Shown here piece by piece: positions 43,492-48,042 of a DNA stretch of 50,992 nt. The stretch covers positions 1-50,992 of the forward strand of contig CAKNLX010000004.1 in NCBI GenBank assembly GCA_930989465.1. The letters are read 5' to 3'. The translations under genes and the position numbers were made by a program. The notes beneath the pieces were generated by a model. It did no database searches. It was given only the letters and a program-made list of their open reading frames with translations, and was not told the origin of the DNA. The first letter of the stretch is position 1. Every line of letters begins with the position of its first letter. Origin of the DNA: an uncultured Lactobacillus sp. (GTDB lineage: Bacteria > Bacillota > Bacilli > Lactobacillales > Lactobacillaceae).

Positions 43492-44346
43492 TTATTTTAT
43501 TTGACTGGTACCTGTTGCGTAATTCAAACGAACGCCATTTTCAACATTAAAGATATAAACGTTGAAATGAACCGTATTTGAACTAACTGACTGTCCTTCC
43601 ATTTCTACTCCTCGAGCTAATAATTCATCACCACGGAAAACAGGCGTTACTCGATAGCGAACGTAATTGTTACCCGATTCCTTGAGATATTCTGCTACTT
43701 CATCTTCATAACGTAGCATATCCGGATCATTAAGCTGCCTAGTTCCTGTCATCAGGTTCTTCAAATTATTGTTTTGTCCAGTTAATTGAAACCCTATTAG
43801 ATGACAACGATTATAAAGCCAGCCACCAGCAATTCTCTTATTATGCCAACCTGTCGGATCAACGTGGAGCGGTTCACGTGGACTATTAGGCATCAATGAC
43901 TTATTGAGTAATGCGTTAGCAGTAGTAACTCGATTTAAGCCATCAAGATTGCCATAACGTTGCCATGCACCGTCTGCTGTACTCAAGTCTGTTTTGGAGA
44001 AACTAGGATCATTATTATTAACAATAATAATATCTTTCCCTGTATAAGTGAGAGTAGCAAGCTTAGCAGCACTTACTGATTCAACTGCATGTGCACTCGA
44101 ATATTTCTTAAGTTGCCTTCTTAATTTAGCAATCTTTTTATCTAATGTTTTTATTTTTTGTTCAGTTTTACGATTCTTAACCTCAATTTTAGTAGCTTTT
44201 ATTTTAGCAGTTCGATTATATTTAACTACCGTTTTAGGTGCTTTTGCTAAAACAGTTCCTTGACTACTTTGAGCATTCGAGCAACCTGAAAGTGTCAAAA
44301 GCATCAAAAAGCTAGAAAAAATCGTAACAAATTTACGTTTATTCAT
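43492..44346 (-). CDS. DNA/RNA non-specific endonuclease, lipoprotein
   Basis: 284 residues. Lipoprotein signal MNKRKFVTIFSSFLMLLTLS ending in the lipobox SGC at about 22, so the mature enzyme is tethered outside the membrane. A coiled, Lys/Arg-rich region (45-85), then the nuclease domain (about 105-280): DGLNRVTTANALLN, GWLYNRCHLIGFQLTGQ with the catalytic His in the NRCH motif (DRGH in many relatives), and NLKNLMTGTRQLN with the metal-binding Asn. This matches the EndA-like Endonuclea_NS_2 family, which degrades DNA and RNA for nutrition or DNA uptake. ATG overlaps the previous gene stop by one base. Confidence 0.9.
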   Translation of the reverse strand: MNKRKFVTIFSSFLMLLTLSGCSNAQSSQGTVLAKAPKTVVKYNRTAKIKATKIEVKNRKTEQKIKTLDKKIAKLRRQLKKYSSAHAVESVSAAKLATLTYTGKDIIIVNNNDPSFSKTDLSTADGAWQRYGNLDGLNRVTTANALLNKSLMPNSPREPLHVDPTGWHNKRIAGGWLYNRCHLIGFQLTGQNNNLKNLMTGTRQLNDPDMLRYEDEVAEYLKESGNNYVRYRVTPVFRGDELLARGVEMEGQSVSSNTVHFNVYIFNVENGVRLNYATGTSQIK

Positions 44347-45011
44347 TATCTCAATGCCTTTCTATAGCCAGCAGCTTTAGCTTCTGCTTCAGAATCAAAG
44401 TAAACTGCATTTGCGGAATTCATTCGATATCCCGCTTGCCCTGGAACATGGTAAATTTTAGAGTTACGATTACCAACAATTTTACCTGAATCTGTGGTAT
44501 TCATATCTCCATGATTGCCAGCGGGTGCTCCTGAATTATGATGATGTTCAGTTTTAATTGATTGAGATGAATTAGCTGAATAATTATCATGCTTCGCCTC
44601 TTTAGCCGCTTTTTTCTCAGCTTTTTCTTCAGCTAATTTTTCTTTTTTAGCTTTAGTTTTTGCAATAGCCAAAGCAGCTACTAACTTTTCATATTCTGCT
44701 TCTTCTTTTTTCTCTTCTTTATCTAAAACTTTTTCTTTAGCCTGTGCTTTAACTAGCTCTTTTTGTCCAACTTTTTTCACTACATAATGAACTTTAGGTT
44801 CTGTAGTACTGGTTGACGAATCATCATCGGGCAAACTATTTACCCAGCAACAAAACAGTATGAAAACAATGACAACTGAACTCAGACTCGACCATAATCG
44901 ATCTCGTTTACTATGTTTAAAAACATACTTTTTTAATAAATAATACGGAGTAAAGTAATACCAAAACAAAATCCAGAGAATTACTTTTCCGATTTTTTCT
45001 AAGGTATTCAT
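44346..45011 (-). CDS. Membrane-anchored companion of the nuclease, with KIYHVPG domain
   Basis: 221 residues. A membrane span near 38-58 (LSSVVIVFILFCCWV), a long Lys/Glu/Ala-rich coiled region (about 75-145, DKEEKKEEAEYEKLVAALAI), a His/Ser-rich linker, and a C-terminal domain GNRNSKIYHVPGQAGYRMNS...DSEAEAKAAGYR. That domain resembles the small Ada-metal-binding-like unit often found at the C terminus of secreted nucleases, but its Cys ligands are absent. The stop overlaps the nuclease start (TAATG), so the two are coupled. Probably holds or guides the nuclease at the membrane; this is inferred. Confidence 0.65.
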   Translation of the reverse strand: MNTLEKIGKVILWILFWYYFTPYYLLKKYVFKHSKRDRLWSSLSSVVIVFILFCCWVNSLPDDDSSTSTTEPKVHYVVKKVGQKELVKAQAKEKVLDKEEKKEEAEYEKLVAALAIAKTKAKKEKLAEEKAEKKAAKEAKHDNYSANSSQSIKTEHHHNSGAPAGNHGDMNTTDSGKIVGNRNSKIYHVPGQAGYRMNSANAVYFDSEAEAKAAGYRKALR

Positions 45012-45013
45012 AC

Positions 45014-45343
45014 TTATCTCTTCGATTCACGATAACCCGCTGCTCGTGCTGCAGCCTTGCTCTTAAAAAATACAGCATTTTCACGGTTCATACGGTAACT
45101 ATGACCTCTTATTACATGAAAGATCTTACTCTTTTTATTACCTACAATCCGATAATCACCAGTCCAAATCTTTGCTTTACTATGTTTATGCTTTTTAACA
45201 TGTCTTCTAGGATGACGTTTAGCTCTATGAACTGTAGCTAAAACAGTATCACAATTATTAAAAGTGGAAGGAATAACTGCCACTTCACCTAGCACCATCA
45301 GAATTGCACTGATTAGGACTAGTAATCTTCTTCCTTTTTTCAT
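45014..45343 (-). CDS. Secreted companion of the nuclease, with KIFHVIRG domain
   Basis: 109 residues from the ATG at 45343, which follows GAGAGG; an ATG five codons earlier has no site. Signal peptide (MKKGRRLLVLISAILMVLGE), a His/Lys/Arg-rich basic part (RAKRHPRRHVKKHKHSK), and a C-terminal domain GNKKSKIFHVIRGHSYRMNRENAVFF...AAGYR, clearly paralogous to that of the next gene. The start of the next gene is two bases past this stop, so the three genes form one operon. The basic part could bind nucleic acid; this is inferred. Confidence 0.65.
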   Translation of the reverse strand: MKKGRRLLVLISAILMVLGEVAVIPSTFNNCDTVLATVHRAKRHPRRHVKKHKHSKAKIWTGDYRIVGNKKSKIFHVIRGHSYRMNRENAVFFKSKAAARAAGYRESKR

Positions 45344-45421
45344 AAAATAACCTCTCATTCACACAAAAAAATATACATTTATAGTTTTAGTTTACACCTA
45401 AACAATATTAATAGAAGCGAC

Positions 45422-46038: not shown

Positions 46039-47784
46039 TTATTTAGCATAGCCAACCTTGTACCAAACATTATTTGCAGCTGCTGGTTTTAACGAGTAGT
46101 TCACGATCTTATTATTAACAGCTTGAATCGCATAAGAGTTAGTCATTGGTACAATATAAGCTTCATCATTCATATATTGCTGCCACTTATGAAAAGCTGC
46201 TACCCGGTACTTATGATTGAATGCCTTAGTAGAATCAATTTCATCAAGCAATTTATTGTTTTCCTTGGTAACGAATCTAGAGTCATTCATTGGGTTAGTT
46301 TCGCTGTACATCCCTCTTGGTGAAGGCTCTGATGACAATGACCAAGCTGCCATAAACATATCGACATTTTTATCATCGTGGTCCAGTTTGTCGTAGAAGG
46401 AATTGAACTCAATTAATCTGCCACCAGTTAAGCTGACATGCAAGCCGATTTTATGCCACTGTTGAATATAATTCTGAATAATCGGCTCTTGCACTGCGGA
46501 ACCTGTCATTGCGGCCAAGTGAATACTCAAAGGCTTGCCATTAGGTTGAACCCTCCATTTGCCTTTCTTCTTGTAGCCAGCTTTATCCAATAATTGGTTG
46601 GCTTTCTTTAAATTGTATGGAAAACCTTTAGCATTCTTATCGAAGTAATCGCCAAATTGAGCAGGAATCAAAGTTGGCACTCTGAAAGTCAAACCTTGCG
46701 TGTATCTCTTTTCAACTTGATTAATATTCATGGCATAGGCAATTGCCTGACGCAAAGATTTATTGTTCATCTTGGCATTCTTATCCATGACATTCTTGCC
46801 ATTCTCCCACTTCCCGACTTTGAAGCCTAAGTAACTATATGCAAGAGGGATCTTAGCAATAAAGTTAGTATTCTTAGCGTTCTTAACGGCTTGCCAATCA
46901 GAGTTAACTATCTCTGCAATATCAAACTTGTGACTCTTAATTGCTTGACTGGCTGATTTAGTCGAAACAACTTGCGCCACAATCTTATTCAACTTTGGTT
47001 TACCCCTCCAATAATATTTATTGGGAACCCAAGTTACTGACTGACCTCTGACAACTTTGCTAACTTTATATGGTCCAAAGAATAATGGATCTTTTCTGAT
47101 TTGATCTGATGAAACTAATTTACTGAAAGGTACATCCTTTAAATGATGATATGGAGCTGCCGTTTCAATAAAATAGTCATTACCAGATTGCAACATCCCT
47201 GGCTTCATTGCTAAAAAATGAATGACAATAGTTCTGCCATTTTCACCATCAGGATAAGTTATGTCTGAAATAGTTTTCGCTTTGCCATTGTGATAGGCTT
47301 TCATTCCTACGATATTAGCTAGAGAATCTGAGTACCGTAGACTGTTGGTAGCTTTATTGGCAGTCATTTCATATGGATATTCCAAATCCTTAGCAACCAC
47401 TTGCTTGCCATCGGACCACTTAACTCCTTTCTTAACAGTAATTGTTACTGTCTTGGCTTTCTTGTCTAGTTTAAAAGTAGCTGGGCCTTTATTAGTAATC
47501 TTATATTGATTATCAGTATCGAACAAAGCCTCATTACCAAATTGCATTACGTCTGAATCCACTTGATCAACTGATAACTGACTATCAAAAATCCCTTTAA
47601 AAGGAGTATCAGTTTCAATAGCATAGGTTAAAGTCCCGCCCTGTTTTGCTGTTTTTTGTGGGGGTTGTTCAGGAAACTTATTCGCAGTCTTGGCTGCATT
47701 CTTATTATTTTGACCACATGCAGTTAAACTTAAAGCTGCACCAATAAGTAAACCGGTAGTACTGATAAATTTAATAGCTTTCAT
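46039..47784 (-). CDS. Oligopeptide ABC transporter substrate-binding lipoprotein (OppA-like)
   Basis: 581 residues. Lipobox LTACGQNN (Cys at about 23), then a family 5 solute-binding fold: KGPATFKLDKKAKTVTITVK, the KWSDGKQVVAKDLEYPYEMT signature near 125, FGPYKVSKVVRGQSV near 245, NKSLRQAIAYAMNINQVEKR near 345. It binds peptides outside the membrane and hands them to an Opp-type permease, which is not in the window, so this is an orphan binding protein. It is preceded by a strong promoter, a 32-codon leader ORF and a terminator, suggesting controlled expression. ATG follows AGAAAAGAG. Confidence 0.93.
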   Translation of the reverse strand: MKAIKFISTTGLLIGAALSLTACGQNNKNAAKTANKFPEQPPQKTAKQGGTLTYAIETDTPFKGIFDSQLSVDQVDSDVMQFGNEALFDTDNQYKITNKGPATFKLDKKAKTVTITVKKGVKWSDGKQVVAKDLEYPYEMTANKATNSLRYSDSLANIVGMKAYHNGKAKTISDITYPDGENGRTIVIHFLAMKPGMLQSGNDYFIETAAPYHHLKDVPFSKLVSSDQIRKDPLFFGPYKVSKVVRGQSVTWVPNKYYWRGKPKLNKIVAQVVSTKSASQAIKSHKFDIAEIVNSDWQAVKNAKNTNFIAKIPLAYSYLGFKVGKWENGKNVMDKNAKMNNKSLRQAIAYAMNINQVEKRYTQGLTFRVPTLIPAQFGDYFDKNAKGFPYNLKKANQLLDKAGYKKKGKWRVQPNGKPLSIHLAAMTGSAVQEPIIQNYIQQWHKIGLHVSLTGGRLIEFNSFYDKLDHDDKNVDMFMAAWSLSSEPSPRGMYSETNPMNDSRFVTKENNKLLDEIDSTKAFNHKYRVAAFHKWQQYMNDEAYIVPMTNSYAIQAVNNKIVNYSLKPAAANNVWYKVGYAK

Positions 47785-47808: not shown

Positions 47809-47845
47809 AAAAAAAGGCCCACATCCCAATTAAGGAATGTGAACC
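47809..47845 (-). terminator. Attenuator-like terminator before the OppA-like gene
   Basis: Minus strand GGTTCACATTCC pairs with GGGATGTGGGCC over 12 pairs (some G-U), loop of 6, followed by seven T. It lies 35 bases after the leader ORF stop and 25 bases before the lipoprotein start. Confidence 0.85.
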
Positions 47846-47879
47846 TTCATAGAATAATTAGTAAATCAATTATCTGAGA

Positions 47880-47978
47880 TTAGGATCGCCGCACACCATA
47901 ATTTAGGATCACAAATAAACCATCATTTTGGTGGCGGCGTCGTAATTCTACTGTTAATGCGCTTTGTGATTCTAACAT
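47880..47978 (-). CDS. 32-codon leader ORF
   Basis: ATG at 47978, TAA at 47882-47880; starts MLESQSALTVELRRRHQNDG and ends FVILNYGVRRS. AAAGGAG (47994-47988) lies 9 bases before the ATG, as strong as any in the window. The coding RNA itself can fold: CGCCGCCACC pairs with GGTG(T)GCGGCG, and ATCACAAA near the start pairs with TTTGTGAT, and the two pairings exclude one another. This fits a ribosome-sensing leader peptide; a short functional peptide is also possible. Confidence 0.65.
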   Translation of the reverse strand: MLESQSALTVELRRRHQNDGLFVILNYGVRRS

Positions 47979-48013
47979 GATATGTGACTCCTTTCTTAAA
48001 TGAATTTAATGTT

Positions 48014-48042
48014 ATATTAAAATTTCTTTTAGCTGTTGTCAA
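48014..48042 (-). promoter_or_regulatory. Strong promoter of the leader/OppA-like unit
   Basis: Minus strand perfect TTGACA (48042-48037), 17-base spacer, TAATAT (48019-48014). Transcription would begin near 48007, giving a 220-base leader. Confidence 0.75.

Follow-up and report, generated by a model that had tools for sequence, protein, structure and literature searches.

A candidate ribosome-mediated transcription attenuator before an oppA-like lipoprotein gene in Lactobacillus

We analysed a stretch of Lactobacillus DNA of 50,992 nt (the window) and found on its minus strand, upstream of a gene for an OppA-family peptide-binding lipoprotein, a leader that is probably a classical ribosome-mediated transcription attenuator. 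Computation establishes the anatomy of this leader, its conservation and its competing RNA pairings, from which we infer translation of the leader ORF, ribosome stalling, the amino acids sensed and read-through into the gene. The first-pass annotation had proposed that ribosome progress on the leader decides read-through; this idea is supported by folding scans, shuffles and conservation, although an antiterminator had to be added to it.

Anatomy and conservation of the leader

All features described here lie on the minus strand. The leader begins with a promoter-like site, TTGACA-17-TAATAT (48014..48042), with 10/12 matches. Its TTGACA (48042-48037), annotated as a perfect -35, is indeed so and is invariant in the eight aligned leaders, while the -10 annotated as good is present as a TAATAT at 17-base spacing, ending at 48014, but is poorly conserved among the homologs. 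Since a 4-kb scan gave 22 promoter-like sites against 14.7 expected and the -10 hexamer is variable, the promoter call depends on where the site lies and on its unvarying TTGACA. The annotated 32-codon ORF and its AAAGGAG site are both in place: the Shine-Dalgarno (SD) sequence (47988..47994) lies in AAGAAAGGAG, identical in all eight leaders, and the ORF (47880..47978) encodes MLESQSALTVELRRRHQNDGLFVILNYGVRRS, which matches no Pfam or NCBIfam family. In its frame, codons 13–16 (CGA CGC CGC CAC, 47931..47942) specify Arg-Arg-Arg-His and are the proposed control codons. An intrinsic terminator (47809..47848) separates the leader ORF from the gene; it carries the seven T first described, running to 47809, but its stem (47848-47813) has 15 pairs with G-U allowed, not 12. 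The terminator scan found five terminator-like sites against 2.0 expected, and the stem is kept in the homologs, with one pair changed on both sides. The downstream gene (46039..47784, ATG at 47784) encodes a lipoprotein of 581 aa that matches Pfam SBP_bac_5 at E 1.5e-58; its best NCBIfam model, Opp4A, scores 506.8 bits, under the cut-off of 650.

A search for the ORF upstream of oppA-like genes across Lactobacillus had been proposed as a check, and it does recur there. A blastn search of 75 Lactobacillus genomes, in which only first-look candidates were scored, gave eight homologous leaders in seven genomes, with the same oppA or its remains directly 3' of every one and varying genes upstream. 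The carriers include L. ultunensis (G072), L. gallinarum (G013), L. kitasatonis (G029, with two copies, G029a and G029b) and an uncultured Lactobacillus MAG (G068). The oppA gene is full-length and stop-free after five leaders (window, G013, G072, G005 and G003) and broken after three, with a large internal loss in G068 (locus L007), stops after G029a (L005), and the C-terminal part only, in one open frame, after G029b (L014), whose leader ORF has a stop at codon 5. Weak short blastn matches occurred in six further genomes, and those in G052, G062 and G028 were inspected. A covariance model run on the 75 genomes of the genus gave eight strong matches in seven genomes and three weak ones (G023, G024 and G054; E 0.0036 to 0.18), which were rejected: by eye, the matches in G023 and G024 look like one locus without the leader layout, and that in G054 is partial. 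Among sampled genomes of the family, the RNA model under stricter filters matched 2 of 251, both Lactobacillus, and the 22-residue leader peptide matched 3 of 301, all Lactobacillus. Other oppA paralogs showed no similar leader by eye in the six of 24 loci (L025-L048) for which a scripted search for a lipoprotein start gave output (L025, L026, L028, L031, L041 and L047), which is not a census, L031 being in the wrong frame and L025 starting far inside the locus.

The surroundings of the leader-oppA unit differ between genomes. The upstream neighbour is an SlpA-domain gene in the window and other genes in G005, G003, G029b and G068 (L004, L006, L014 and L007), and the alignment with the G005 leader, otherwise 97% identical, does not start until base 27 of the query (48020, at the -10 box). 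Because the neighbours differ and the G005 match starts at the -10 box, the unit appears to have moved or had its upstream side replaced. An origin from a mobile element or plasmid was considered and rejected, the host assembly (57.64% complete) holding one copy and 72,556 plasmid records none. Elsewhere on the minus strand, the window encodes a protein whose C-terminus carries a sunset domain (44346-45011; NF051437, 49.0 bits, cut-off 27). Its neighbours are a protein that matches an Ada-type metal-binding model (45014-45358; 27.7 bits, cut-off 23) and, at 43492-44346, a DNA/RNA non-specific endonuclease; by eye, similar-looking genes lie on the opposite side of the leader in G068.

Besides the SD sequence, the ATG is identical in all eight leaders and the 110 bases after it are, for the most part, almost unchanged, the independent sequences being few, with four of the eight leaders nearly identical in the core. 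Over leader codons 1–21, the window shares 20/21 first, 20/21 second and 21/21 third positions with G003, and 19/21, 18/21 and 20/21 with G068, whereas the 581 codons of oppA keep 90.5, 95.2 and 52.3% of these positions between the window and G003. With third positions kept at 21/21 in the leader against 52.3% in oppA, the leader is therefore constrained by more than the peptide it encodes. Residues 1–22 of the peptide are similar (MLESQS...TVELRR(R/H)HQNDGLF), and RR(R/H)H is present in the seven leader ORFs compared. Past residue 22, the sequence is VILNYGVRRS in the window, G013, G072 and G005, and C(D/N)(S/P)KLWCA in G003, G068 and G029a, which have one more T; this one-base difference puts four of the eight copies in another frame. 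Because the frame differs between copies, the C-terminal peptide sequence hardly matters as protein, and the GVRRS end noted earlier is not meaningful. Conservation at the amino acid level, proposed as a check on the ORF, thus holds for residues 1–22 and not for the C-terminal part.

Competing pairings and ribosome position

Folding predicts a three-way switch around segment 2, TGGTGTGCGGCG (47898-47887). This switching strand can pair with the SD/start region, or with segment 1, CGCCGCCACC (47930..47939), a protector strand that overlaps codons Arg13-Arg-Arg-His16, or, together with its neighbour TGTGATCCT (47913-47905), with the terminator 5' arm, where the antiterminator partner is the core of segment 3, CACATT (47836..47841). 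The first-pass annotation had described a switch of two mutually exclusive stems; both stems exist and exclude each other by folding, but the pairing of this region to the terminator 5' arm was missed, and the stem of ATCACAAA and TTTGTGAT is just part of a longer hairpin that includes the start codon. In RNAalifold and most single folds, this long hairpin extends from the SD/start region to GGTGTG; its 5' arm (47963..47986) spans the start codon, its 3' arm (47892..47915) contains TGTGATCCT, which doubles as an antiterminator strand in leaders of the window type, and CACATATCATG pairs with TATGGTGTG. The shorter G029b fragment folds differently. The covariation that had been sought in the stems is slight: in RNAalifold, 2 of 69 pairs are changed on both sides, and the protector has no compensatory change.

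When a ribosome occupies the start codon, the fragment that begins past it folds segment 1 onto segment 2; the energy of the whole fragment is -32.2 kcal/mol for the window and -32.8 kcal/mol for G003, and that of the protector duplex alone -21.4 kcal/mol. With the P site at codon 13 and the terminator 3' arm absent, the terminator 5' arm pairs upstream in the window, G003 and G068 (-12.6, -15.6 and -14.4 kcal/mol), its partner being segment 2 in G003 and G068 and TGTGATCCT in the window. Specifically, in the window leader segment 2 itself pairs with the terminator arm at a probability of 0.03-0.11 at codons 12–18 and 0.54-0.57 at codons 19–23, so that at the RRRH codons the window uses another partner than G003 and G068. 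When the terminator 3' arm is present, the terminator hairpin wins in all folds compared, and the switch thus needs co-transcriptional folding; the decision would be kinetic. A kinetic decision between alternative hairpins is a feature of the classical attenuation model. Protector, antiterminator and terminator are mutually exclusive by folding in the window, G003 and G068 (leaky), and weakly so in G029a.

For each P-site codon of a ribosome on the leader, we calculated the probability that the terminator 5' arm pairs upstream. In the window, this value is 0.00-0.05 at codons 1–9, 0.26-0.33 at codons 10–11, 0.50-0.65 at codons 12–23 and 0.00 from codon 27; G003 shows 0.02-0.04 at codons 1–9, 0.71 at codon 11, 0.81-0.91 at codons 12–23 and 0.00 from codon 27, and G003 fragments starting around the start codon (positions -5 to -3) are ON at 0.66-0.79. 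The G068 leader reaches 0.83-0.92 at codons 10–23, yet also 0.61-0.77 at codons 1–5, and leaks at the start (0.50) and the end (0.46), and G029a reaches 0.67-0.73 only at codons 19–23. Without a ribosome the value is 0.35 in the window, 0.07 in G003, 0.48 in G068 and 0.03 in G029a, and the segment-2-specific pairing in this state is 0.00. Dinucleotide shuffles of the whole stretch that separates the start codon from the terminator arm (n=300) reached the observed contrast in 5 cases for the window, none for G003, none for G068 and 24 for G029a, where the contrast is weak. For the window and G003, the scan stays stable when the footprint is varied from 11 to 17 nt and when three different transcript ends are used. 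Shuffles confined to the spacer from segment 2 to the terminator kept the ON value in 41/200 cases for the window, 5/200 for G003, 22/200 for G068 and 138/200 for G029a; because the ON value is often kept, the switching signal must reside chiefly in the core and in the arm of the terminator. Much the same scan on E. coli trpL, as a control, gave 0.40-0.48 at codons 2–5, 0.50-0.64 at codons 6–12 and 0.01-0.07 at codons 13–16, while hisL was ON at codons 0 to 13, fell to 0.20 at codon 14 and was ON again (0.56-0.76) at codons 15–18. Because these controls are imperfect, the position scan is indicative and not proof.

These data suggest the following mechanism. Without a ribosome, the long hairpin would hold segment 2 and hide the leader start codon, so that the terminator forms and oppA is off. 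A ribosome near the start would let segment 2 pair with segment 1, again leaving the terminator to form and oppA off. A ribosome stalled at about codons 12–23 would cover segment 1 and free an antiterminator strand, predicted to be segment 2 itself in G003 and G068 and, in the window-type leader, mainly TGTGATCCT at codons 12–18 and segment 2 at codons 19–23; the freed strand would pair with the terminator 5' arm, and RNA polymerase would read into the lipoprotein gene. A ribosome at the stop codon would cover segment 2, and the terminator would form.

Two other readings of the leader deserve weighing against attenuation. The element might be a ligand- or protein-sensing RNA of the riboswitch kind, with an incidental ORF, as could be argued from nucleotide conservation beyond coding needs and from a peptide whose C-terminal part shifts frame while the RNA is kept. 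We consider this unlikely: the window leader matches no Rfam family at the gathering score, on which ground a known riboswitch family was rejected (for L006 and L007, the one Rfam match at E 1 or better was to L006 and reached 24.2 bits, the cut-off being 80); the SD sequence and ATG are kept in 8/8 copies, though both lie in or beside the long hairpin; and the pairing profile follows ribosome position, as in trpL. Still less probable, in our judgement, is a small trans-acting RNA of about 200 nt, made from the promoter and ended by the terminator, with oppA served by another promoter. Its own promoter-like site, a terminator and strong core conservation would all suit such an RNA, but all eight copies immediately precede the same oppA, or what is left of it, even though their upstream genes differ, and the protector is weaker where oppA is broken: -21.4 kcal/mol in the five leaders with full-length oppA, and -12.1, -16.0 and -16.0 kcal/mol in the three with broken oppA. 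G068 and G029a, both with broken oppA, also switch more leakily or weakly in the shuffle-tested scans. Weaker protectors before broken oppA fit a cis-acting role, in three copies only, two of them from one genome.

The candidate signal

Granted an attenuator, the most likely signal would be a shortage of charged tRNA-Arg and/or tRNA-His, to which we give, from the position of the codons, slightly less than an even chance. Codons 13–16 fall inside the ON range of the scan and overlap segment 1, the GC-rich protector. At least four Arg or His in 14 codons has a chance of 0.007 given the residue usage of 37 window ORFs, a modest enrichment, with the same bases forming the GC-rich protector. The hosts seem, from their gene content, unable to make Arg and His and hence auxotrophic: histidinol dehydrogenase was found in none of the seven leader-carrying genomes (the window's own assembly being 57.64% complete), and argininosuccinate synthase above the family cut-off in none of the seven, six weaker matches in frames of 523-526 codons falling below it. 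A need for external Arg and His would suit a target gene whose product binds peptides.

The same attenuator could answer to another signal, namely any slowdown of elongation, whether from lack of other amino acids or from ribosome-targeting drugs, with the Arg/His codons being there because segment 1 has to be GC-rich. This is possible, although we do not favour it. The ON range covers about 12 codons and many residues, the RRRH run is encoded by GC-rich segment 1 itself, and CGC and CGA, at 5.9 and 4.1 per 1000 codons in the window, are not extremely rare. On the other hand, three Arg in a row have a chance of about 0.0006 in 12 starts at the Arg usage of the window, and residue 15 is only R or H in the seven ORFs compared; both points are weakened by the GC-rich stem. 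The fuller version of the Arg/His reading, in which the leader would sense both amino acids together, and its own translation initiation through the 5' hairpin, in order to control peptide scavenging, is put forward tentatively, as we think it less likely than not.

The usual Firmicutes sensor is abundant in these cells, with 14-26 T-box (RF00230) matches per genome at E 0.001 or better in the seven genomes, but the T-box covariance model has no match at the leader; the cell thus seems to rely on a different design at this site. The genus also has a further leader ORF, MQQSLQAIQRYYAGVFYTYYG, which contains five Tyr codons and stands before a terminator (L067, L068, L069 and L070; first L008, G052:C1). 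It was found in four of the 75 genomes; in G053 its start differs (MQHLLPTIKRYYAGVFYTYYGK) and RYYAGVFYTYYG is unchanged. The gene after it is presumably, from its sequence, amino-acid-permease-like. This leader is possibly Tyr-responsive, and the position scan of L008 showed no clear switch (0.54-0.89 throughout). If the fuller Arg/His reading holds, the leader described here, with the Tyr-rich one, would mean that these lactobacilli, rich in T-boxes, maintain alongside them a set of leader-peptide attenuators that serves nutrient uptake. An attenuator before the oppA-like gene would tie tRNA charging to peptide uptake in amino-acid-dependent lactobacilli, and would be a reason to survey systematically the conserved short ORFs found upstream of transporter genes.

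Comparison with known attenuators

Leader-peptide attenuation is textbook biology in enterobacteria. In the features tested, the predicted anatomy of the present leader corresponds to a trp/his-type attenuator: as is generally known for trpL and hisL of E. coli, control codons of the leader ORF, here proposed ones, overlap a protector, and antiterminator and terminator exclude each other. The ON range of trpL in our scan is also similar. Unlike trpL and hisL, this leader precedes a gene for a peptide-binding lipoprotein and not biosynthesis genes, has mixed Arg/His codons, and carries a long 5' hairpin that takes in the start codon of its ORF. It is likewise not a T-box, the common sensor of uncharged tRNA in the same genomes.

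Searches of the open-access literature listed no title on this leader, on an oppA attenuator or on Arg/His leaders in Lactobacillus. Regular leader peptides in Firmicutes were presented as new by a 2010 survey, which also covers attenuators of hisS paralogs in bacilli (PMC2965389), and leader-peptide attenuators are also described for ilv-leu of Staphylococcus aureus (PMC5794164) and for his operons in three Firmicutes lineages (PMC9413887). These cases share with the present leader transcription attenuation by a leader peptide in Gram-positives and differ in that their codons are for His or Leu/Ile and their genes are biosynthetic or of the synthetase family, whereas here, in Lactobacillus, Arg/His codons stand before a transport-related gene. 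The Salmonella speF leader has Arg codons and alternative mRNA conformations, as here, but controls ornithine decarboxylase in an enterobacterium (PMC6386406). Similar in setting is the ABC-leader of two lactobacilli, L. gasseri and L. johnsonii, where an attenuator is predicted upstream of a gene for an ABC transporter; unlike the leader of the oppA-like gene here, it precedes a multidrug export operon (PMC2965389).
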